A DNA stretch of 42,361 nucleotides from Erysipelotrichaceae bacterium (GTDB lineage Bacteria > Bacillota_I > Bacilli_A > Erysipelotrichales > Erysipelotrichaceae). The stretch lies in the NCBI GenBank assembly GCA_029101345.1, contig JAQXQU010000060.1:1-42361 (forward strand). The letters are read 5' to 3'. The notes under the pieces were generated by a model, which was given only the letters and a program-made list of their open reading frames with translations, searched no databases and was not told the origin of the DNA. Shown here piece by piece: positions 3,962-19,177 of the stretch. Made by a program: the position numbers and the translations under genes. Numbering within the stretch: the first letter of the stretch is position 1; every line of letters starts with the position of its first letter.

Positions 3962-4582
3962 ATGAAATATGACGCAATAGTAGTAGCCTCAGGCATAGGT
4001 TCTAGAGCCAAGCTCGGCTATAACAAAGTTCTCTATCAAATGAAAAACGGCAAGACTGTTTTGGAAAACGCCTGCCAGCTTTTTCTAATGGATGAAGACT
4101 GCGAGAAAGTCATTGTTGTAAGTGATGCCAAAAATTTTGAACATCCAAAGCTTATTTGGACAAGCGGAGGCCTTAAGCGCTCGGATTCTGTCTATCAGGG
4201 TCTTATCCTGGCTCAAAGCGAATATGTGCTGATTCACGATGGAGCTCGGCCATTTCTAAGTCAAAGGGCACTTACAGCATTAAAGGAAGAAGTCATCAGA
4301 ACGGATGCAGCAATCCTGGCCACTAAATGCAAGGATACCGTCAAAAGAGTCATAGCCGGGAAGATCGTTGAAACCATCAATCGGGAAGAAATCTATTTGG
4401 CTCAAACGCCCCAAGCCTTTAGACGTGAACTCCTGCTGGCTGCCAACAGGAATCTGAGTGCAGATGCCAATGTCACTGATGATGCGTCCATTATGGAATT
4501 GGCAGGACATGAAGTCAGCATTGTTGAGAATCTGGACAGTAATCCTAAATTAACACTAAAGGCGGATTTTGAAGAAATATGA
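3962..4582 (+). CDS. ispD: 2-C-methyl-D-erythritol 4-phosphate cytidylyltransferase (IspD)
   Basis: A 206-residue protein of the IspD/TarI fold. The N-terminal CTP loop is divergent (VASGIGSRAKLGYNKVLY instead of AAGxGxRMG...PKQ). GGLKRSDSVYQGL, IHDGARPF, AQTPQAF and TDDASIMELAG are intact, as is the terminal NPKLTLKADFE. It would make CDP-methylerythritol from MEP and CTP in the non-mevalonate isoprenoid route. TarI (CDP-ribitol synthesis) is the main alternative because polysaccharide genes precede it, but ispE three genes downstream favours IspD. It starts 1 base after the glycosyltransferase stop and overlaps rnmV by ATGA, so it appears to be co-transcribed with both. Confidence 0.87.
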   Translation: MKYDAIVVASGIGSRAKLGYNKVLYQMKNGKTVLENACQLFLMDEDCEKVIVVSDAKNFEHPKLIWTSGGLKRSDSVYQGLILAQSEYVLIHDGARPFLSQRALTALKEEVIRTDAAILATKCKDTVKRVIAGKIVETINREEIYLAQTPQAFRRELLLAANRNLSADANVTDDASIMELAGHEVSIVENLDSNPKLTLKADFEEI

Positions 4583-5097: not shown

Positions 5098-5918
5098 CAA
5101 TTGCCACATTATCCCATGTCAAGGAAACACTAGGTGATCTGCATGCCAAGAAGAAATTTGGCCAGAACTTTCTGATTGATGCCAATATTGTCGACAAGAT
5201 TGCCAGGAAGGCTGTTGAAGAAGAATTGACAGTCATTGAAATCGGTCCAGGTCTCGGGGCCTTAAGCGAGATGTTGCTAAAATATGGCAAAAGACTTCAT
5301 GCCTATGAGATTGATGAAGACATGTATGAAATACTTAAGGCTGAATTCTCTGATGAGGAGCGCTTCAGTGTTGAACTTGGTGATTTTCTGGATGTTGAGC
5401 TCGAAAAGGTCTTCTATCATGATGAACCTATCTATATCTGTTCCAATCTGCCCTATTATGTTACAACGCCAATCCTCTTCAAGCTCTTTGAATCAAGGCT
5501 TGATATCAGAAAGATTACAGTCATGGTCCAAAAGGAAGTGGCCAGCCGCTTTAGTGCACCGGTGGGTTCTGAAGACTATAATGCCTTAAGTCTCATAGTC
5601 CAGTATCTTTATGATGTCAAATTGGAAATGAATGTCTCCCGCAAGGTCTTCTATCCAAGTCCTAATGTCGATAGTGCCGTCATTTCCTTTACACCGAAGG
5701 TCAAAAGGGATTATGAATATGAGCAAGGTCTTTTTTCACTGATCAAAAACTGCTTCATGAAAAGAAGAAAGACTTTGCAGAACAATCTTAAGGACCATTA
5801 TGATAGAGAAACGATTGAAAAGATCTATGCAGAACTAGGCTTGAAGGATACAGTCAGAGCCCAGGAACTGAAATTAGAAGACTACAAGAGAATCTATGAG
5901 GTGCTGAATGAAAAGTAG
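5094..5918 (+). CDS. rsmA: 16S rRNA (A1518/A1519) dimethyltransferase RsmA (KsgA)
   Basis: A 274-residue SAM-dependent enzyme with KKFGQNFLID at the N-terminus, the SAM loop EIGPGLGALSE, the acidic YEIDEDM, and the catalytic SNLPYYVTTPILF. The C-terminal helical part contains FYPSPNVDSAV and KRRKTLQNNL, typical of KsgA/Dim1 proteins. It dimethylates two adjacent adenines near the 3' end of 16S rRNA during 30S assembly. The start overlaps rnmV (GAGGAGG lies just before it) and the end overlaps ispE by 11 bases, so translation is probably coupled along the operon. Confidence 0.95.
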   Translation: MTIATLSHVKETLGDLHAKKKFGQNFLIDANIVDKIARKAVEEELTVIEIGPGLGALSEMLLKYGKRLHAYEIDEDMYEILKAEFSDEERFSVELGDFLDVELEKVFYHDEPIYICSNLPYYVTTPILFKLFESRLDIRKITVMVQKEVASRFSAPVGSEDYNALSLIVQYLYDVKLEMNVSRKVFYPSPNVDSAVISFTPKVKRDYEYEQGLFSLIKNCFMKRRKTLQNNLKDHYDRETIEKIYAELGLKDTVRAQELKLEDYKRIYEVLNEK

Positions 5919-6753
5919 AGCATATGCCAAAATCAATCTATCACTTGATGTAATAGGCAAAAGAGCTGATGGTTATCATGAACTTGAGTCTGTGATGTGC
6001 CCAATCTTTCTCTATGATGAAATCGAAATCAATATTGCCACAAAGATGTCCTATGAATGCAACAAGTGGTATGTCAAGTTCAAGGACAGCAATACCATTG
6101 TCAAAGCTATCAATTATATGAAGGACAGATATCATATTACTGATAACTTTGAAGTAAAGCTCAATAAATTCATTCCAATCAAAGCTGGCTTGGCTGGCGG
6201 CTCAACCGATGGTGCCTGTGTCATCCGGATGTTTGACCAACTCTACAATCTTAATATGAGCAAGGAAGAGATCAGGGAAGCCTGTCTTTCAATTGGGGCT
6301 GATGTCATCTTCACCTATTATTCAAAGCCAGCACTGGTATCAGGCATTGGTGAGAAGCTTGAATTCTTTGATATCAAGGATGACTACTATGTCCTCTTGG
6401 TCAAACCTAATGCCGGTGTCAGTACCAGGGATGCCTATCAGCAATTGGACTTAATGTCCTGCGATCATCCTGATGTCAAAATGCTTAAGGACAAGCTTAT
6501 CAAGGGCGAAGAGCTCAAAGGCTTATTAGGCAACAGTCTGGAGTATTCTTCATTCAGGCTCTGTCCGGAAATAGCAAGAATCAAGGAAGAAATGGAAGAG
6601 GTGTTAGCCGGCAAGGTCCTGATGTCAGGTTCAGGTTCAACGGTCTTTGCGATATCCAGATCCAAGCAGGAAATCGATGATCTTTACAAGCTGATGAAGG
6701 ATTCCAAAATGTTTGTCAAGACTACTCGTCTTTTAAAGAACACGAGGTCGTAA
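5908..6753 (+). CDS. ispE: 4-diphosphocytidyl-2-C-methyl-D-erythritol kinase (IspE)
   Basis: A 281-residue GHMP kinase: RAYAKINLSLDV with the catalytic lysine region, RADGYHELESVM, the ATP loop KAGLAGGSTDGA, and MSGSGSTVFA in the C-terminal domain. It phosphorylates CDP-ME in the MEP pathway, one step after IspD, which lies three genes upstream. It overlaps rsmA by 11 bases. The order rnmV-rsmA-ispE is common in Bacillota; adding ispD at the head brings two MEP steps into the same transcript. Confidence 0.94.
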   Translation: MKSRAYAKINLSLDVIGKRADGYHELESVMCPIFLYDEIEINIATKMSYECNKWYVKFKDSNTIVKAINYMKDRYHITDNFEVKLNKFIPIKAGLAGGSTDGACVIRMFDQLYNLNMSKEEIREACLSIGADVIFTYYSKPALVSGIGEKLEFFDIKDDYYVLLVKPNAGVSTRDAYQQLDLMSCDHPDVKMLKDKLIKGEELKGLLGNSLEYSSFRLCPEIARIKEEMEEVLAGKVLMSGSGSTVFAISRSKQEIDDLYKLMKDSKMFVKTTRLLKNTRS

Positions 6754-6788: not shown

Positions 6789-6810
6789 AGGATAAGAGTC
6801 GGAGGAAAAT

Positions 6811-8262
6811 ATGAATAGCGCAATTATCTTTATCAAGAACCATGAAGAAGCTGTACTATCAAATAACAAGATTTTCAAGGAGAATATTCTTTGCCGGGCA
6901 ACCAAACTGTTGAATGAAGCTGGCATTGAAGATATCTATTTGATTGCCAATGAAGAGATATGCAGTATTGAAAATGTCAAGCGACTAGCTGATGTCAATG
7001 ATCTAAGCAGTCTATTGGATCCTGATGGCAAATCAATTCTCTTAAGTCCTTTCTACCCATTTATCAAACCTGAACAATACAAGCAGATGCTTGAAGTTGA
7101 AGATAAGGGAGCAGTCATTACGGATGGCAAGGAAATTGCCGAAGTATTCATGGTCCCAAACAGGCTCATTGCTGATTTTGAAAAGATTGAATATGAATCA
7201 GTCAAAGTGCCAAGAAGAAAGATGCTGAAGATCAGAAACCAGAACGATATCAGCTACTATGGCCATTGCTTCAACGAATCGGGCAATGACTTCAATGATA
7301 TTGCCATCTTTGCATTAAGTGGCAATACGGAAATGGTTGATGAAATATGCGCATATTTGGATACCGAACCAGGAAAGATCTCCATCAGCCACTTCGCTGA
7401 TGGTGAAACCTTGGTTGAACTAGGTGAAACAGTCCGCGGCAAGAAGGTCTACTTTGTCCAGTCGACCTGCAAACCGGTCAATGAAAAGCTGATGGAACTC
7501 CTAATTGCTGTTGATGCAGCCAAGCGTTCTTCAGCTGCTGAAATCATCTGCGTCATGCCTTATTATGGCTATGCCAGACAGGACCGCAAGGCGAAGCCAC
7601 GCCAGCCAATCACTGCCAAGCTTGTCGCTGATATGCTGGAAGCAGCTGGTGCTTCAAGAGTTGTCACATTTGATCTGCATGCGGCGCAAATCCAGGGCTT
7701 CTTCTCGTTCCCTGCTGATGATCTGACAACTGTTCCACTTGTTGGCCGTTACTTCCTTAACAAGGGCCTCGATATGGAAAATGTTGTTGTTGTCTCGCCA
7801 GACCATGGTGGAGCAACCAGAGCCCGCAAACTGGCAGAAATCCTTGGTACAACCATTGCCATTGTCGATAAGCGTCGTCCACGCCCAAATGTCTGTGAAG
7901 CTCAGAATGTCATCGGTGATATTGAAGGCAAAAATGTCATCGTTGTTGATGACATCTGTGATACAGCTGGTTCAATGGTTGCGGCTTGCCAATTGTTAAA
8001 GGATAAGGGTGCTAAGGACATCTATGTTGCAGTAGCTCATGGCGTTCTTTCTGGACCAGCTATTGAACGCATTGAGAATTCCGTTATCAAGGAATTTGTC
8101 ATCACCAATACCATTCCTCTAGCCAAGGAAGTAAGCAAAAAGACAACAAAGATCACTGTCCTTTCCATTGCCTGGATGCTGGCAAACCTCATCAATGCGA
8201 TTTCCCTTCATACACCAGTCTCTCAGGTTTACGATATTTTCGAAAAACAGCCTGAATGCTAA
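6811..8262 (+). CDS. prs: Ribose-phosphate pyrophosphokinase with an N-terminal GlmU-like pseudo-nucleotidyltransferase domain
   Basis: A 483-residue protein. Residues ~163-483 are a complete PRPP synthetase: FADGE, GYARQDRKAK (residue ~250), the catalytic DLHAAQIQGFF (~288), the flexible loop DKRRPRPN and the PRPP loop VVDDICDTAGS (~379). It makes PRPP from ribose-5-phosphate and ATP for nucleotide synthesis. Residues 1-~155 are extra compared with ordinary ~317-residue Prs. They have the spacing of a GlmU N-terminal domain: a hydrophobic first strand, an EAGIEDIYLI strand, SILLSP...PEQYKQMLE, and a late RNQNDISYY resembling GlmU 'VNDRVQLAEAE'. The G-x-G-T-R loop and the metal-binding Asp are missing. 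glmU and prs are neighbours in many Bacillota, which suggests a fusion and decay. A clear GGAGG site supports ATG 6811. Confidence 0.9.
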   Translation: MNSAIIFIKNHEEAVLSNNKIFKENILCRATKLLNEAGIEDIYLIANEEICSIENVKRLADVNDLSSLLDPDGKSILLSPFYPFIKPEQYKQMLEVEDKGAVITDGKEIAEVFMVPNRLIADFEKIEYESVKVPRRKMLKIRNQNDISYYGHCFNESGNDFNDIAIFALSGNTEMVDEICAYLDTEPGKISISHFADGETLVELGETVRGKKVYFVQSTCKPVNEKLMELLIAVDAAKRSSAAEIICVMPYYGYARQDRKAKPRQPITAKLVADMLEAAGASRVVTFDLHAAQIQGFFSFPADDLTTVPLVGRYFLNKGLDMENVVVVSPDHGGATRARKLAEILGTTIAIVDKRRPRPNVCEAQNVIGDIEGKNVIVVDDICDTAGSMVAACQLLKDKGAKDIYVAVAHGVLSGPAIERIENSVIKEFVITNTIPLAKEVSKKTTKITVLSIAWMLANLINAISLHTPVSQVYDIFEKQPEC

Positions 8263-8757: not shown

Positions 8758-8914
8758 TATAACTGGATAAGTCTATCTGCCTTTTTTAATCTTTACGCCA
8801 AAAATATCTATTTATAACTAGATACATAACCGCTAATGATTAAAGTAGAAGTAGACAATGACCAGGAGTTTAGCTATGGGCTTCTGCATGTATACGGTAG
8901 CAAGGAGGTATGCT

Positions 8915-11900
8915 ATGAAACAGATGTATAGGGATCTGAAAAAACTATTGACTGTCATCCTTGTTGGCATGATGCTGTTTACAACAATCAGAATCAATCC
9001 AACAATTATCACTGCTGAAGAAACTGAAGACGAAGCAGTAGTTGAGACAGTTGAGAACATTGAAAATTCGGATGCTGAACAACTGGAAACATCTGATGAT
9101 TATGTCGTTCCTTCACCAGTCGTAACAACTGAAACTGAAGAGGTTGCTGGTGAAGTGGAAAAGACTGAAGATCAGGCTGATGTTTCTATCGAAGAAACAG
9201 CAGATGATAAGCAAGAGGAGGAAATCGTCACAAATGAAGTTTCTGATGAAACTCAAGTCGACGACAACCTGGAAGCAAATAACATAGTTGAGGAAGTGGC
9301 AATGCCTGCCCAGAACTTCTCTGGTGCAGCCAATGCTGTTCGTGTAGCAGTCAATGCACCAGAAGGCGCATTCCCAGCTGGCACAACAATGAAGGTCACA
9401 CCTGTCAACAATGATGTTGCTAGAGAGCTTGCTGAATCAGTAACAAGTGAAGAAAAGGAAGTAGCAACAGCTATTGCCATCGATATCGCTTTCTTTGATT
9501 CAGAAGGAAACGAAATTGAACCATTGAAACCAATTACTGTCTCCTTATCAAAGGACATGAAGGGTGAAGAATTTGGTATCTACCATGTCGAAGACAATGG
9601 TGATGTCAATCTGGTTTCTGAAGATGCAACAAACAAGGGTGCAACTTTCACTTCTGATTCCTTCTCAATTTACCTGATTGTTGGTACATCCGAACCTCAG
9701 CCAGGCGAAGAAGAAGATACAATCATTATCAATGTCCGCCATATCACATCTGCCGGCATTGCGATTTTTGATAATGCCTCAGAAGAAATTGCCAAGAATG
9801 CTGATGGAACATATACCTTCTCCTATAATGTCCCACAGGCCGAGGGCAAATCACCAAAGCTGTCTGATTCAACCGATTCATCCTTTGTATTAAGTGCTGA
9901 TGGCTTGAAGATTGATGCAACAATCACTGGCAGCGATCTGGCATATTATGTAACTATCATTTATGAAAACGACAAAGCTGAATATACAGTTATCAAGTCA
10001 TTTGAACAGTTAAGCGGTGATCCAAGAACCGAATCATATACAACTGAAGGTGAAATCGGCTACCTGACTGATACAACTGATTATCAGACGGAAGTTGAAG
10101 GTTACATTCTTCAGGAAGTGGATGAACAGGTCGTCGAAGCAAGCGGCACTGTTGTCAATCTTGAATACAAGCTCAAGACTTATACAGTCACATATGATAC
10201 TAATGGTGGTTCATATATCAAGGCTCTTACTGGCAAGCATGGCGAAAAATTAACTGTCTACAAAATGATTGCTAGTGATCCTGAATTGACTTGTGGTCAG
10301 GAAGCACATACTCATGTTCAGCCTACTGGAGATCCTGGATACAACAAGACAAGCGGATGCTATAAATCAAGCTGGAATTGGGACTCGAGGAAATTCGAGT
10401 GGAAGCTAAACTGTAGCAAGAGCGAACATACTCATACTGACGATTGCTACACAAGCACATCAACTTATAGTGTAGTTCCAACCAAGCAGGGCTATACATT
10501 TGCCGGCTGGTATGCCGATAAGGATTGCACAGTTGTAGCTGATGAATCGGTAGTACTAAGTGGCAATGTCACTGTCTATGCCAAGTGGGAAGCAGCAACA
10601 GCTGTCTATACAATCGTATACCAGAAGGAAAATCTGGACGGCACATATAGCTATATCAGTTCCAGAACTGCAACAGCTACAGTTGGTACAAATGTAACAG
10701 GCAATGATGGTGCTGGATCATTTACCGACAGCAATTATTATCAGTATGCAGGCTCAACAAGTGCAACAGTAGCTGCCAATGGTTCAACTGTTGTTTATGC
10801 AAAATACAATTTAAAGGAATACACTATTTCTTTCGACCTGAACAGGGATGGTGCTGCAATTAATATTAATGATAAGACCTATAAGTATGGCGATAAGACC
10901 TACTCAATCAATGTCAAACTAGGCCAGGATATTTCCGACTTGTGGCCAACAGCTGAACATATTGCGGAAGTAAATGGCTATTCATTCTACACCTGGACTC
11001 TTTCCAATCAGGCATATGCAACAAAGAATACTGTTGTCTTGGCTGAAATGCTCGGTAATGGCAACAATACGAAGATTACTGCTACTGCTAGCTGGAGCAA
11101 CAGCCTAACTAAATGCTATGTCTACTACTGGATTGAAAAGGCTGATGGATCAGGTTATGAGATCAGTACTGAATTCTCCCAGTATGTAAATCTCAAGAGT
11201 GGATTAAACGCCAAGGAACTTAATGGTTTGACTAGACTTGGTACTGCAAGCGACCCTCAAAAGCCAAGCGGAAACAACCCTGCTACTGGCGAAGCATATC
11301 CAAATACTACAGTAAGTGACGGCCAGATCAAGGATGCAGAAGGCAAAGTCGTATTTACTGGTACTATCTACAACTTCTACTACAATAGAAATGCTTATAA
11401 AATCGAATACAGCAATGGTGGCACAATTACTGATACTCTAAGTGTCAAATATGGTGCTGACATTACATCTGATACTTATACAAAGCCAAGTCCTAATAGA
11501 CCTGCTAGTGTTGATGAAGATTATATCTTCGCTGGCTGGTATGACAATGCGGCATGTGAAGGAAGCAAATATGTCTTTTCAACAATGCCTGCTTCAAACC
11601 TAGGCCTATTCGCTAAGTGGGTAGCACCTGATAGAACAGTCACAGTTATTTACGATAATGGTGAAGATACTTCTAGAATCACCGTTAAGAAGGGTGATTA
11701 TGCAGATATCCCAACACCTGTCAGATCTGGTTATGACTTTGTCGGCTGGTTCTTCGAAGACGGAACTGAAGTTGATACTTCAGCGCCAATTACGGAAGAT
11801 ATCACAATCGTTGCCCATTGGAAGCTAAAGACTAATACTGACTATGTCATCAGATATGTCCTGGAAGATGGCACAAAGATCTTTGATGATGAAGTCAAGA

Positions 11901-14900
11901 CAAGCAAGGTCGGCAAGACTGTTGTCGCTTATGCAAAGGAACCTACTGGTACTTATGCCGGCTATATCGTCAATGCAGCGTCACAGTCATTGGTCTTAAC
12001 TGGCAATGAAGAAAATGATGTCATCACCTTTGTTTACAGCAAGTTCACTCCTGCCCAGTATCAGGTCTGGTATGTAGATGAGGAAGGCACTGTTGTTGCT
12101 GGCAATGGCAGTGATGATTGGAAGACTGCTGAAGCTAATAAGATCCTGGTCAAGGTTGATCCAAATGAAATTCCGGTTGGCTATGAACTGAATGATGAAG
12201 CAGTTAAGGAACTTGTTGTTTCTGGCGATAAGACTAAGAACCATGTCGAATTCATGATTAAACCGATTGTTTATCATGTAACTTATGTCTTGAATGGTGG
12301 TTCAATTTCCGGACAGCCTACTGAATACACAATTAAGAGCCCAGATCTACCTGTACCACAACCTACAAGAACAGGCTATAAGTTCACTGGCTGGGACTTT
12401 GGTCCAAAAGGTGTTCAGGATACAGATAAGCCACATGACAGAATGAACACAATCATTCATGCTGGTTCGCATGCAGATCTTGTATTTACAGCAAATTGGG
12501 AACTCAATGTCTTCAATATCACATATAAATGGGATGGTGCTGCACCAGAAGGTGTAAATCCTCCAGTTGTTTCAGAATCCTATGAATACGGAAGCAGTTA
12601 CACTGTTGAAGCAGAACCAGCATTACAGTTGACATATGACGATGAAGGCAATGTCAATGGTGTCTGGACATTCAATGGCTGGTCAAAGACTGGTACATTA
12701 ACAGTTACTGGTCATATTGAAATAGTCGGTTCATGGACATATACACAGTTGGCAATCAGTGCTGACGGCTATAGTGGAACATATGACGGAGCTGAACATT
12801 CTGTATCAAATATCGCTGTTATCTCAGGTGAAACAGATATTACAAGCGAATTTGCAATTACATATAAGGTTGATGGTGTTGAATATGCATCACTTCCTAA
12901 ATATAAGGACGTAACAAACAAGGAAGTAACAGTTGTAGCAACTAATAGCACTCATGGTTATGAAATTGAAACAACAGCTTCTGTAGTTATTACTCCAGCT
13001 AATGTTACAGTCACAGCCGCTGACATGACCAAGGCTTATGGTGATAGCGATCCTGCTCTAACAGCTAGTGTCTCTGGACTTGTAGCAGGTGAGTCTGAAT
13101 CCCTGATCCGATATAATATCTCGAGAGTTGCTGGCGAAAATGTTGGCAAGTATGCAATCACTCCAACAGGCGTTGCAGTTCAGGGCAACTACAATGTTTC
13201 TTATATTCCTGCAGAACTTGAGATTACAGCCAATACTGAAGTAATCACAATCACAGCAAACTCAGCAAGCAAGGTCTATGATGGAACTGCCCTTGAAGAC
13301 AATGGCACAACATATACTGGCAAGCTGGCAACTGGTGATACATTGACAGCGGTTGCAAGTGGCAGCATTACTGATGCTGGCAAGGCTGATAATGTCATTG
13401 CTTCTTATAAGATTTTAAATGCAAAGGGTGAAGATGTTACTTCTAACTATGCAAATATCACTACAGTGAACGGTTCTCTGGAAGTAACCAAGAAACCAGT
13501 CACTATCACAACTAAGTCCGCTAGCAAGGTCTATGATGGAACTCCGCTTACAGCAGATGGTTCGATTTCAGGCCTGGTAGTCGGCGAAACAGTATCATTC
13601 ACTGTCACTGGCTCGCAGACTGCAGTTGATTCAAGCAAGAACACATACTCCCTTGTCTGGGATGGCAGTGCCAAGGAAGGCAACTATTCGATCAGCGAAA
13701 ACCTCGGCACACTGACTGTCACTGAATACGCTGAAGAAATTGTTGTAACAACAACAGGTGGAACATTCACATACGATGGAAAGGCCCATGGCGCAACAGT
13801 AAAAGTAAGCACACTTCCTACTGGCTACAGCCTTGAAACAGCAGTCTCAAACGATACAGCAACCAATGTCCTTGACGGTACAGTGGCAGCTAACTGCGAT
13901 GTGCTGGTCATCAGGAATGCTGAAGGCGAAGATGTAACAGCTAAGCTCAACATCAGATATGTCGATGGCACAATCAAGATCAATCCTGCTCCTTTGAGCG
14001 TAACTACTCCAAGCGCATCAAAGGTCTATGATGGAACTCCACTTACAGCAGCTGGTACAATGACTGGCTTGGTCAATGACGAAACAGCTACGCTAAATAC
14101 TACAGGTTCACAGACTACTGTTGATTCAAGCAGAAACACTTATACAATTTCCTGGGGAACTGCATCTCCTTCAAATTACAAGGTAACTGATTCTGTTGGT
14201 ACACTGACTGTCACTGAATATGCAGACGAGATTGTTGTAACAACAACAGGTGGCGAATTCACATACGATGGAAAGGCCCATGGCGCAACAGTATCCGTCA
14301 GCAATCTTCCTACAGGCTACAGCCTTGAAACAGCAGTCTCAAACGATACTGCTACTCATGTAGCAGATGGAACCGTCACTGCGAACTGCGATGTCCTGGT
14401 CATCAGAAATGCCGAAGGCGAAGATGTAACATCCAAGCTGAACATCAAGCAGGTAACTGGCACAATCAAGATCAATCCAGCTCCTCTGACTGTAACCACA
14501 GAATCCGCTAGCAAGGCTTATGACGAAACTGCACTTACAGCTGGCGGTTCAATCGATGGCCTGGTCAATGGCGAAACAGCTGGCTTCAAAACTACTGGTT
14601 CCCAGATAACCAAAGGCTCAAGCAGCAATACTTATGAAATCACATGGAAGGCTGCTGGCAACAGCTATACTGCCGTTGAATCAGACTATGCAATCAGCGA
14701 AAACATCGGTACGCTGACAGTGACCGAATATGCTGGCCAGATCACTGTCACTACAACTGGCGGCGAATTCACATACGATGGAAAGGCCCATGGAGCTACT
14801 GTCAAGGTCAATGGTCTGCCTGCAGGCTATAAGGTTGGCAAAGCTGCATCAAATGATTCAGCAACTCATGTAGCAGATGGCACAGTCGATGCTAACTGTG

Positions 14901-16993
14901 ATGAACTATCAATTCTAGATACAAATAATAATGACGTAACTGCTCAGCTCAACATCAGCTATGTCGATGGCACAATCAAGATCAATCCAGCTCCTCTGAC
15001 TGTAACTACAGAATCTGCTAGCAAGGTCTATGATGGAACTCCGCTTACAGCTGGCGGTTCGATCGATGGCTTGGTCAATGGCGAAACAGTATCATTCACT
15101 GTCACCGGCTCGCAGACTGAAGCTGATTCCAGCGACAACACCTATGAAATCGTCTGGAAGGCTGCTGGAAACAGCTACACAGCAGTTGAATCAGACTACA
15201 CAATCAGTGCAACTGTCGGTACACTGACTGTCACTGAATACGCAAACGAGATTGTTGTAACAACAACAGGCGGCGAATTCACATACGACGGCCAGGCACA
15301 CGGCGCAACAGTAGAAGTAAGCACGCTTCCTACAGGCTACAGCCTTGAAACAGCAGTCTCAAATGATACTGCTACTCATGTAGCAGATGGAACTGTCACT
15401 GCTAATTGCGATACATTGGTCATCAGAAATGCTGAAGGCGAAGATGTAACATCTAAGCTGAACATCAAACAGGTAACTGGCACAATCAAGATCAATCCAG
15501 CAACACTTACTATTACTACAAATAGTGGCACTAAGACTTATGATGGTACAGCATTAACAGCGGGTGTAGAAGTAAGCGGATTAGTCACTGGCGAATCCGT
15601 AGATGTAACTGCTACTGGTTCACAGACAATAAAGGGTTCAAGCACTAATACTTATTCAATTGATTGGACAAATGCTACTGAATCAGATTACACAGTAAGT
15701 GAAAATCTGGGTACATTAACAGTAAATCCAGCAACAGCTACAGTCACAGCTGCCGACAAGACCAAGGTCTACGGCGCAGCTGATCCAGATCTTACAGCCG
15801 CAGTATCCGGACTTGTGAACGGCGATGCCGCTTCAGTCATCAGATACAGCATCTCAAGGGCTGAAGGCGAGAACGTCGGAACATACGCAATCACTCCTGC
15901 TGGCGATGCAGTCCAGGGCAACTACAATGTCGTCTACGTTCCTGCAGAGCTGGAGATCACACCAATTACAACAACTATCAAGATTACTGCTGATTCTGCA
16001 ACTAAGGTTTATGATGGAACTGCTTTAACAGAAGCTGGATACACATATAATGAAGAAGCATTAGCTGATGGTGATGAAGTGATAGCTGTTGTTGAAGGTT
16101 CAGTTACTGATGCAGGCACAGCCGATAATGAAATCACTTCATTCATGATTGTCAACGCTGATGGCGCCGATGTAACAAGAAACTACGATAACATTGAATT
16201 AGCAAGCGGCATATTAGAAGTAACTAAGAGACCGCTGTTGATCAAGACTAACTCGGCATACAAGGTATATGATACTTATCCACTAACTGCTAAGGGTTCA
16301 ATTGAAGGCTTGGTTGATGGTGAAACAGTAACATTCAAGGTAACTGGTTCACGTGTTGGAATCGGTTCTAGCAAGAATACATATATGCTTGTATGGGAAG
16401 GAACAGCTAAAGAATCCAATTACGAGATTACTGAGGAAATCGGTACATTGACAATTGGTGAAGGTGCTGGCCCAACAAATCCACCTGCTCCAGGTCCAGA
16501 TCCTGATCCTAGACCAATTCCAGATCCACTTCCTGAACCTGATCCTGAAATAGATCCAGTTGAAGAACCAGAAGTAATCGATCCAACTCCTACACCAGAA
16601 GTTGGTGGCGATGAATCATATTGGGCATTGCTGAATTTGATCTGCGCTGTTCTATCAACATTAGGAGCAGTTGTACTTCTGCTTTCTAAGTCTAAGAAGG
16701 ACGAAGAAGAGGAAGAAAATGATGACGAAGTTAAGGCGATGGCTTCTGAAGAGGAAGATGAACCTGAACAGAAGAAGAGAAAAGGTATCTATAAGGTTCT
16801 TGGTAGCCTGTCTGCTATTGCTTCAATCGTTGTCTTTATCCTAACTGAAGACATCACTCTGCCAATGGTATTAACTGACAGATGGACACTTCTAATGGTT
16901 GTATTATTCATCATCTCATTAGGTTCACTGTTCCTTGGTAGAAGATGGCATGAAGAAGACGAAGATGAAGATGAAGCTGAAGCAAATGCTTAA
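8915..16993 (+). CDS. Giant secreted, membrane-anchored MBG / InlB B-repeat surface protein
   Basis: About 2692 residues. ATG 8915 is chosen because AAGGAGG lies six bases upstream and the protein then begins with a signal peptide (MKQMYRDLKKLLTVIL, cleavage near residue 33). The in-frame ATG 19 codons earlier has no such site. Order: signal peptide; Glu/Thr-rich linker (to ~125); a beta domain (~130-265); InlB B-type (Flg_new) repeats with GYTFAGWY/AKWE signatures (~425-1265), the first interrupted by a CxnHTH...CY insert (~460-512); a long MBG/YDG array (~1278-2518); a Pro/Asp/Glu linker (~2519-2563); three C-terminal membrane helices (~2568-2591, 2627-2648, 2656-2675) separated by acidic/basic loops. 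There is no LPXTG motif, so anchoring is by the helices. Likely an adhesin or stalk; the ligand is unknown. It has its own promoter and terminator. Confidence 0.9.
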   Translation: MKQMYRDLKKLLTVILVGMMLFTTIRINPTIITAEETEDEAVVETVENIENSDAEQLETSDDYVVPSPVVTTETEEVAGEVEKTEDQADVSIEETADDKQEEEIVTNEVSDETQVDDNLEANNIVEEVAMPAQNFSGAANAVRVAVNAPEGAFPAGTTMKVTPVNNDVARELAESVTSEEKEVATAIAIDIAFFDSEGNEIEPLKPITVSLSKDMKGEEFGIYHVEDNGDVNLVSEDATNKGATFTSDSFSIYLIVGTSEPQPGEEEDTIIINVRHITSAGIAIFDNASEEIAKNADGTYTFSYNVPQAEGKSPKLSDSTDSSFVLSADGLKIDATITGSDLAYYVTIIYENDKAEYTVIKSFEQLSGDPRTESYTTEGEIGYLTDTTDYQTEVEGYILQEVDEQVVEASGTVVNLEYKLKTYTVTYDTNGGSYIKALTGKHGEKLTVYKMIASDPELTCGQEAHTHVQPTGDPGYNKTSGCYKSSWNWDSRKFEWKLNCSKSEHTHTDDCYTSTSTYSVVPTKQGYTFAGWYADKDCTVVADESVVLSGNVTVYAKWEAATAVYTIVYQKENLDGTYSYISSRTATATVGTNVTGNDGAGSFTDSNYYQYAGSTSATVAANGSTVVYAKYNLKEYTISFDLNRDGAAININDKTYKYGDKTYSINVKLGQDISDLWPTAEHIAEVNGYSFYTWTLSNQAYATKNTVVLAEMLGNGNNTKITATASWSNSLTKCYVYYWIEKADGSGYEISTEFSQYVNLKSGLNAKELNGLTRLGTASDPQKPSGNNPATGEAYPNTTVSDGQIKDAEGKVVFTGTIYNFYYNRNAYKIEYSNGGTITDTLSVKYGADITSDTYTKPSPNRPASVDEDYIFAGWYDNAACEGSKYVFSTMPASNLGLFAKWVAPDRTVTVIYDNGEDTSRITVKKGDYADIPTPVRSGYDFVGWFFEDGTEVDTSAPITEDITIVAHWKLKTNTDYVIRYVLEDGTKIFDDEVKTSKVGKTVVAYAKEPTGTYAGYIVNAASQSLVLTGNEENDVITFVYSKFTPAQYQVWYVDEEGTVVAGNGSDDWKTAEANKILVKVDPNEIPVGYELNDEAVKELVVSGDKTKNHVEFMIKPIVYHVTYVLNGGSISGQPTEYTIKSPDLPVPQPTRTGYKFTGWDFGPKGVQDTDKPHDRMNTIIHAGSHADLVFTANWELNVFNITYKWDGAAPEGVNPPVVSESYEYGSSYTVEAEPALQLTYDDEGNVNGVWTFNGWSKTGTLTVTGHIEIVGSWTYTQLAISADGYSGTYDGAEHSVSNIAVISGETDITSEFAITYKVDGVEYASLPKYKDVTNKEVTVVATNSTHGYEIETTASVVITPANVTVTAADMTKAYGDSDPALTASVSGLVAGESESLIRYNISRVAGENVGKYAITPTGVAVQGNYNVSYIPAELEITANTEVITITANSASKVYDGTALEDNGTTYTGKLATGDTLTAVASGSITDAGKADNVIASYKILNAKGEDVTSNYANITTVNGSLEVTKKPVTITTKSASKVYDGTPLTADGSISGLVVGETVSFTVTGSQTAVDSSKNTYSLVWDGSAKEGNYSISENLGTLTVTEYAEEIVVTTTGGTFTYDGKAHGATVKVSTLPTGYSLETAVSNDTATNVLDGTVAANCDVLVIRNAEGEDVTAKLNIRYVDGTIKINPAPLSVTTPSASKVYDGTPLTAAGTMTGLVNDETATLNTTGSQTTVDSSRNTYTISWGTASPSNYKVTDSVGTLTVTEYADEIVVTTTGGEFTYDGKAHGATVSVSNLPTGYSLETAVSNDTATHVADGTVTANCDVLVIRNAEGEDVTSKLNIKQVTGTIKINPAPLTVTTESASKAYDETALTAGGSIDGLVNGETAGFKTTGSQITKGSSSNTYEITWKAAGNSYTAVESDYAISENIGTLTVTEYAGQITVTTTGGEFTYDGKAHGATVKVNGLPAGYKVGKAASNDSATHVADGTVDANCDELSILDTNNNDVTAQLNISYVDGTIKINPAPLTVTTESASKVYDGTPLTAGGSIDGLVNGETVSFTVTGSQTEADSSDNTYEIVWKAAGNSYTAVESDYTISATVGTLTVTEYANEIVVTTTGGEFTYDGQAHGATVEVSTLPTGYSLETAVSNDTATHVADGTVTANCDTLVIRNAEGEDVTSKLNIKQVTGTIKINPATLTITTNSGTKTYDGTALTAGVEVSGLVTGESVDVTATGSQTIKGSSTNTYSIDWTNATESDYTVSENLGTLTVNPATATVTAADKTKVYGAADPDLTAAVSGLVNGDAASVIRYSISRAEGENVGTYAITPAGDAVQGNYNVVYVPAELEITPITTTIKITADSATKVYDGTALTEAGYTYNEEALADGDEVIAVVEGSVTDAGTADNEITSFMIVNADGADVTRNYDNIELASGILEVTKRPLLIKTNSAYKVYDTYPLTAKGSIEGLVDGETVTFKVTGSRVGIGSSKNTYMLVWEGTAKESNYEITEEIGTLTIGEGAGPTNPPAPGPDPDPRPIPDPLPEPDPEIDPVEEPEVIDPTPTPEVGGDESYWALLNLICAVLSTLGAVVLLLSKSKKDEEEEENDDEVKAMASEEEDEPEQKKRKGIYKVLGSLSAIASIVVFILTEDITLPMVLTDRWTLLMVVLFIISLGSLFLGRRWHEEDEDEDEAEANA
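13001..13495 (+). repeat. MBG block B, first copy
   Basis: 495 bases encoding TVTAADMTKAYGDSDPAL...AVQGNYNVSYIPAELEIT followed by NSASKVYDGTALE...LEVTKK. A second copy of the same two-domain block occurs at 15734-16231 (498 bases), so the tandem array between them is bracketed by paralogous blocks. Protein similarity is high, while many synonymous codons differ. Confidence 0.85.
13496..15735 (+). repeat. Tandem array: four ~500-base MBG units plus a half unit
   Basis: Units start at 13496, 13991, 14483, 14993 and 15503 (495, 492, 510, 510 bases, then a partial copy). Each full unit encodes two beta modules: SASKVYDGTPLTA...NTYxxxW...GTLTVTEYA, then VTTTGGEFTYDGKAHGATV...GTIKINPA. Some segments are nearly identical in DNA, for example around 13740, 14232 and 15252, which suggests recent expansion by recombination. 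Confidence 0.88.
15734..16231 (+). repeat. MBG block B, second copy
   Basis: Encodes TVTAADKTKVYGAADPDL...AVQGNYNVVYVPAELEIT, then DSATKVYDGTALT...LEVTKRP, matching block B at 13001-13495. It is followed by one more half unit (16232 to ~16470) before the proline-rich linker. The first ~230 bases use more C-ending codons than the first copy does. Confidence 0.85.
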
Positions 16994-18442: not shown

Positions 18443-19177
18443 CTAAGTTAAGGAATGTTTTCTGTATTCTGCAGGAGACATTCCTTTTAATTTTGTCTTA
18501 ATTCTATCGTTGTTGTAGTAGTTTATATATTCATGTATTGAATCTATTAACTGCTCTGTTGTTTTAAACTCGAATTCATGGCCATAAAAGAATTCTGATT
18601 TCATAATCCCGAAGAAATTCTCCATGACAGAATTATCTAAGCAGTTGCCTTTTCTGGACATCGACTGTATTATTCCTTTTTCCTTTAGCCGGTTTTGATA
18701 AGGAACCATCTGATATTGCCAGCCCTGATCTGAATGAAGGATGCAGCCATTCGGACTTCTTCCTTCAAAAGCCTTATCAATCATCTCTTTTGTCTGATCA
18801 AATGACGGACTAGTCGAAACAGAATAGGATATTATTTCTAAATTATATAAATCCATAATTGGCGATAAATACACTTTACCACTTGTGATATGAAATTCCG
18901 ATACATCAGTTACCCACTTGGAATTAGGCCTATCGGCTTTGAAGTTCCTTTGCAATATATTCGGAGCTGCTTTACCCACGGTTCCTTCATATGATTTATA
19001 CCTGGATCTTCGAACAGGAGAATACAGTCCCGTTTTAGACATTAACCTTTTTACTTTCTTATGATCAATGCTTGCACCTTTGCTTCCCAGCTCCAAAGTT
19101 ATTCTTCCATAGCCATATCTTCTTTTATGCTTATGAAAGATATCGCTTATCAAAGCCATTAATTCAGCGTTCTTCAA
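18443..19177 (-). pseudogene. IS3-family transposase orfB (catalytic part), probably out of frame with orfA
   Basis: The DDE catalytic domain is intact: WVTDVSEF (first Asp), LHSDQGWQY (second Asp) and SVMENFFGIMKSE (Glu), with the N-terminal HKRRYGYGRIT. The frame is open back to 19339, and the residues upstream of the TTG used here (KEKVAAVDEPRLRYPS, LKAAGLSKSTCFYSR) are typical orfB N-terminal sequence, so the real orfB part is ~298 residues. In IS3 elements it is made as an OrfAB fusion by a -1 frameshift. Here one -1 shift from orfA leads into a frame that stops at 19246-19248, and orfB lies a further step away, so this copy is probably defective. Confidence 0.8.

Follow-up and report, generated by a model that had tools for sequence, protein, structure and literature searches.

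In an Erysipelotrichaceae genome, the class I phosphoribosyl pyrophosphate (PRPP) synthetase, Prs, carries a predicted folded N-terminal domain that derives, with near certainty, from the cell-wall enzyme GlmU, the former operon neighbour of prs. The gene lies in a stretch of 42,361 nucleotides (contig JAQXQU010000060.1), which is referred to here as the window. Prs is essential and stands at the head of nucleotide, histidine, tryptophan and NAD synthesis, and bacterial Prs is as a rule a simple enzyme of about 320 residues. GlmU, in turn, is often regarded as indispensable and as a drug target. Taking the evidence together, we consider it probable that GlmU was displaced, decayed stepwise and was fused, as a pseudo-domain, to Prs, to which it would be a non-catalytic accessory module. 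The coordinates of the fused gene and its parts are collected in the table.

Features of the fused gene and its surroundings in the window
Feature	Position	Strand	Basis
Fused gene: pseudo-nucleotidyltransferase domain (almost certainly GlmU-derived) and class I PRPP synthetase, 483 aa	6811..8262	+	ORF, NCBIfam match, relatives
Shine-Dalgarno motif GGAGG, ATG 5 nt downstream	6801..6805	+	sequence; purine-rich Shine-Dalgarno-like motif likewise placed in the fused relatives checked
N-domain, residues 1-154, shortened pseudo-uridylyltransferase (almost certainly from GlmU)	6811..7272	+	hhalign, structure prediction, dN/dS
Residues 10-16 (NHEEAVL), where the GlmU nucleotide loop GxGTRM stood (lost)	6838..6858	+	
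Residues 74-83 (KSILLSPFYP), in place of GlmU GDxP, metal Asp lost	7030..7059	+	
Residues 142-150 (RNQNDISYY), last helix, in place of the GlmU VNDR segment	7234..7260	+	alignment to separate GlmU'; structural alignment
Linker, residues 155-161, without in-frame start codon	7273..7293	+	
Class I PRPP synthetase, complete, residues 162-483	7294..8259	+	NCBIfam PRK01259; PDB 1dkr
ispE, gene immediately 5' of the fused gene	5908..6753	+	

The C-terminal part of the protein is an entire Prs, as an initial annotation made from the sequence had held for residues 163-483. By using a profile scan, it was found that NCBIfam PRK01259 covers residues 162-475 with 429.9 bits, over a cut-off of 297. The closest solved structure is the B. 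subtilis Prs (PDB 1dkr, E 4.1e-103), and the catalytic loops DLHAxQIQGFF, DKRRPRPN and VDDICDTAGS, read against 1dkr, are all present. This gene is the sole prs of the window's genome. The extra N-terminal stretch of some 155 residues described in the same annotation is likewise real: the domain, including its last helix, reaches about residue 154, which places the start of Prs at 162-164. Further downstream, positions 8858-16993 encode a protein of 2711 aa in which similar segments recur many times and which looks like a repetitive surface protein, and an ORF on the minus strand (18443-19177) resembles the integrase part of an IS3-type transposase.

The initial annotation had named a separate Prs start near codon 160 as the result that would speak against a fusion protein, and no such start was seen. 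From residue 138 up to the first Prs strand, the window's gene contains no in-frame ATG, GTG or TTG, and nearly all of the 25 fused relatives that were checked have a strong Shine-Dalgarno motif ahead of codon 1. An upstream part that is not translated with Prs, either through an internal start or because the frame is an assembly artefact, is therefore a most improbable explanation; a few relatives do have an in-frame ATG or GTG close to the Prs start, but the frame is uninterrupted in 26 separate assemblies and under selection at the protein level.

A search with the domain alone detected it in 36 of the 295 genomes of the order, all belonging to one family. In the window's genus it is fused to Prs in 26 of 36 genomes (two cut by a contig end), and six of the 36 encode instead a separate protein of about 370 aa with an N-terminal homologous domain; the remaining four yielded no prs or an incomplete one. 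The separate protein, termed GlmU' here, consists of a dead uridylyltransferase and the LbH half of GlmU, and a few bases separate the end of its gene from prs. Elsewhere in the family, in other genera, the gene immediately 5' of prs is a full-length glmU at 29 of 30 loci. A class-wide search for further carriers returned nothing convincing outside the family, and plasmids gave no tblastn match; the fusion to Prs itself was seen in this Erysipelotrichaceae genus only. In public records, the named carriers are assemblies of Erysipelotrichaceae, for the most part of rumen and gut origin. Since 26 of 36 genomes share the architecture, with a domain that is free of stops and under strong purifying selection, the observation is not a product of chance.

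The descent from GlmU was followed through these relatives. In profile-profile comparisons (hhalign), the fused N-domain matches the separate short GlmU' with an E value of 1.3e-34, the short GlmU' matches the intact GlmU uridylyltransferase with 4.3e-9, and the fused domain matches intact GlmU uridylyltransferases directly with 2.9e-5. The profile alignment pairs MNSAIIFI of the N-domain with MKSAIVLA of GlmU, and KSILLSPFYPFIKPEQYKQMLE with the KTLVVNGDCPCVQIETYEKMFE region, so that the strand and motif correspondences read earlier by eye were reproduced. The assignment of RNQNDISYY to the place of the VNDR segment also held, both in the alignment to the separate GlmU' and in a structural alignment that spans GlmU residues 2-248. 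Residues 1-159 taken alone match no family in Pfam, NCBIfam or PHROGs, and the domain profile gave chance matches only against PDB sequences.

The structural prediction points in the same direction. Residues 1-159, modelled with 20 relatives, gave a pLDDT of 84.3 and a pTM of 0.81, and the model is a shortened nucleotidyltransferase fold; the contrary outcome, a model lacking such a fold, did not appear. Foldseek with this model returned nucleotidyltransferases throughout, GlmU 1hv9 being second (E 2.6e-7). Comparison with GlmU 1fwy gave a Z score of 16.4 with an rmsd of 2.5 over 158 residues, and GlmU scored Z 15-16.4 over about 158 residues. The CMP-sialate synthetase was on par with GlmU (Z 17.1), and because of this the fold alone does not pick out a GlmU origin; GlmU is therefore identified by the chain of sequence comparisons and by gene order. 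The full-length AlphaFold model (pLDDT 61, pTM 0.45) is too poor to place the domain or to define an interface on Prs.

A donor other than GlmU was also considered, for instance a copy of ispD (3962-4582, a few genes upstream). In the fold comparison, IspD and CMP-sialate synthetases are level with GlmU, but an IspD control from the same genomes and neighbourhood reached an E value of just 0.049 against the fused N-domain in the profile comparison, where GlmU gave 2.9e-5, and relatives have the domain attached to a GlmU LbH half, in the place before prs that GlmU occupies. The N-domain is accordingly nearer to GlmU than to IspD; an ispD origin was rejected after this comparison, and any other nucleotidyltransferase source is exceedingly improbable. 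The derivation from GlmU proposed by the initial annotation is almost certainly correct, with relatives retaining the homologous domain as part of a shortened GlmU encoded immediately 5' of prs.

What the domain has lost is seen in the profile alignment to GlmU. The GxGTRM loop, the QxxLGTGHA segment (UTP recognition) and the Asp of GDxP are all missing, in agreement with the earlier reading that the nucleotide loop and the metal ligand had gone, and the N-domain is about 75 residues shorter than the uridylyltransferase domain of GlmU. The LbH acetyltransferase domain (R333, K351, H363, Y366, N377; E. coli numbering for all GlmU acetyltransferase residues) is absent from the fused gene. Judging by these losses of loop, UTP-recognition segment and metal ligand, the N-domain is very unlikely to catalyse the GlmU reaction. 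In the place of the lost metal site, K74, L77, S79, P80 and P83 are invariant across the fused set.

The relatives form a graded series that runs from a full GlmU 5' of prs, through a dead uridylyltransferase with the acetyltransferase site intact, to the loss of both sites and, in the end, to the fusion. Genome G226 and two other genera (g8, g11) have a GlmU' whose uridylyltransferase part is short while R333, K351, H363, Y366 and N377 are intact, and in the separate GlmU' of G006, G098, G100 and G136, R333, E349, K351 and N377 are also gone. These latter four (loci L005 in G006, L008 in G100, L009 in G098 and L011 in G136) are complete short GlmU proteins with both active sites lost, and they are under purifying selection directly upstream of prs. 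In the Prs tree, full-GlmU relatives lie outside and the short-GlmU' lineages come next, while the crown is made up of the fused proteins together with the four that are doubly dead. The window's Prs groups with the four separate-GlmU' relatives (96/83 and 89/78 in Prs trees), which would mean two fusions, but with p-AU values of 0.17 and 0.06 a single fusion is not rejected; the exact places of G226 and of the window's protein are uncertain because both sit on long branches.

Based on this tree, the uridylyltransferase half of GlmU would have shrunk first, losing its catalytic loops; the acetyltransferase site would have decayed afterwards, in some lineages; and the LbH half would have been deleted last, at the fusion, leaving the pseudo-domain as the N-terminus of Prs. 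The initial annotation had envisaged a fusion that followed the loss of the acetyltransferase part. The GlmU-Prs fusion stands, but the order is to be revised, as the uridylyltransferase appears to have died first and the LbH half to have been lost only at the fusion. Repeated remodelling of GlmU was also observed in family f1 (e.g., G196:C112, G130:C12, G097:C2, G056:C6). Many genomes of this family have only residues of about 2-330 of the GlmU model, which would be without the acetyltransferase site, and others have the LbH half only, in frames of 225-240 aa; the two activities of GlmU seem, from these sequences, to have been separated or displaced on several occasions in the family.

A further question is which enzymes replaced GlmU. 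GlmU is over the cut-off in none of the 36 genomes of the genus. Peptidoglycan loss was rejected as the reason, since murA is over the cut-off in 34 of 36 genomes, and UDP-GlcNAc is therefore needed. A 303-aa NTP_transferase protein occurs in 33 of the 36, missing from the window's genome, G114 and G300, the last an assembly that is 74% complete. A UDPGP-family protein was found in two genomes only, the window's and G114, both without the 303-aa protein, and the copy in the window's genome is close to the human UDP-GlcNAc pyrophosphorylase AGX1/2 (E about 1e-79). An enzyme of the UDPGP type was thus rejected as the general GlmU replacement, given its restriction to two genomes; the 303-aa nucleotidyltransferase fits the others. 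In addition, 24 of 36 genomes, among them 10 of the 11 best, encode a 217-aa LbH protein whose relatives include archaeal GlmU and a dual sugar-1-phosphate nucleotidylyltransferase of solved structure (5z09). From homology and distribution, other enzymes appear to have assumed the role of GlmU in UDP-GlcNAc synthesis. The AGX/UAP-like protein of the two genomes (G000:C136:13587-14624, locus L078) and the 303-aa nucleotidyltransferase of the 33 other genomes (L149:1090-1998) are nearly exclusive of each other, and the two are probably interchangeable UDP-GlcNAc pyrophosphorylases. This suggests that displacement of GlmU is possible in bacteria that retain peptidoglycan genes.

The retained domain is under purifying selection. 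In the closest pairs, dN/dS is 0.04-0.21 for the N-domain versus 0.02-0.11 for Prs; no stop codon lies inside the domain in the 26 fused genomes, and no trimmed version was found despite long retention. With a median identity of 54% versus 82% for Prs, the domain evolves much faster. Where dS could be estimated, GlmU' dead in both halves gave dN/dS of about 0.16-0.27, rough values since dS is high. It could be argued that the domain is a tolerated relic of a neutral fusion, kept because it must fold without harming Prs, and its faster evolution, as expected of a weakly constrained tether, and the inactive state of the source enzyme in the closest separate relatives agree with such a proposal. 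Nevertheless, the low dN/dS (0.04-0.2), the invariant positions and the long untrimmed retention free of stops oppose it, and the doubly dead GlmU' was retained by selection even as a separate gene; we regard a neutral relic as unlikely.

The initial annotation proposed that the domain senses a nucleotide or a sugar nucleotide, such as UDP-GlcNAc or UTP, and thereby tunes PRPP output. Its fold is that of nucleotide-binding enzymes, and the invariant K74, S79, P80 and P83, at the end of the strand that bore the ancestral metal Asp, would allow a remodelled pocket. However, the GxGTRM loop, the QxxLGTGHA segment and GDxP have disappeared from a chain that is about 75 residues shorter, and the N-domain matches no known ligand-binding family in Pfam or NCBIfam. 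Loss of the ancestral loops makes sensing by way of the old pocket unlikely, and the proposal as a whole received no support and is rather improbable, even more so than a neutral relic.

A non-catalytic accessory role of the N-domain is favoured, because it was retained beside Prs and then on it, with a folded model and under selection. The domain would affect the assembly or stabilisation of Prs subunits and, via that, Prs regulation; such a role is plausible, at somewhat below even chances. Assembly is the most plausible target in view of two lines of published work. In the E. coli enzyme, PRPS hexamers stack through residues 22-24 and 298-307, and this stacking sets the sensitivity to ADP and allosteric inhibition (PMC9232217), and in mammalian PRPS complexes the N-terminal sequences of associated homologues control assembly (PMC12238573). 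The pseudo-GlmU may have served Prs already before the fusion. A more far-reaching version, in which the doubly dead GlmU was recruited as a regulatory subunit of Prs and fused thereafter, possibly twice, giving a new allosteric or assembly control, is tentative and on balance doubtful. Living relatives keep the steps by which a domain loses its chemistry, is retained and then fuses to an operon neighbour, and so it becomes directly testable whether a pseudo-enzyme gains its function before or after fusion.

In the literature searched, which left out most subscription journals, no description of a GlmU-derived domain on Prs or of a GlmU-Prs fusion was found. In comparison with GlmU (TIGR01173; UDP-GlcNAc pyrophosphorylase/GlcN-1-P acetyltransferase), the N-domain shares the fold, the strand order and the position upstream of prs, whereas it is shortened, has lost the nucleotide loop, UTP segment and metal Asp, and has no LbH half. 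In comparison with class I Prs (PRK01259; B. subtilis, 1dkr), the protein retains the entire enzyme with its active-site loops but, unlike the Prs chains matched in the PDB, bears a predicted folded N-domain of about 154 residues. The closest precedent found is the MetRS of Mycoplasma penetrans (PDB 9os7), also an essential housekeeping enzyme with an appended N-terminal domain of nucleotidyltransferase fold; it differs in the host enzyme and in an aminotransferase domain that lies in between, and GlmU is not mentioned in the main text of that paper (PMC13215547). The mammalian PRPSAP1/2 offer a further parallel, being homologues that associate with a class I Prs and determine its higher assembly, notably by their N-terminal sequences (PMC12238573). 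However, PRPSAPs are paralogues of Prs, while the part added here is covalently attached and would derive from a cell-wall enzyme unrelated to Prs.
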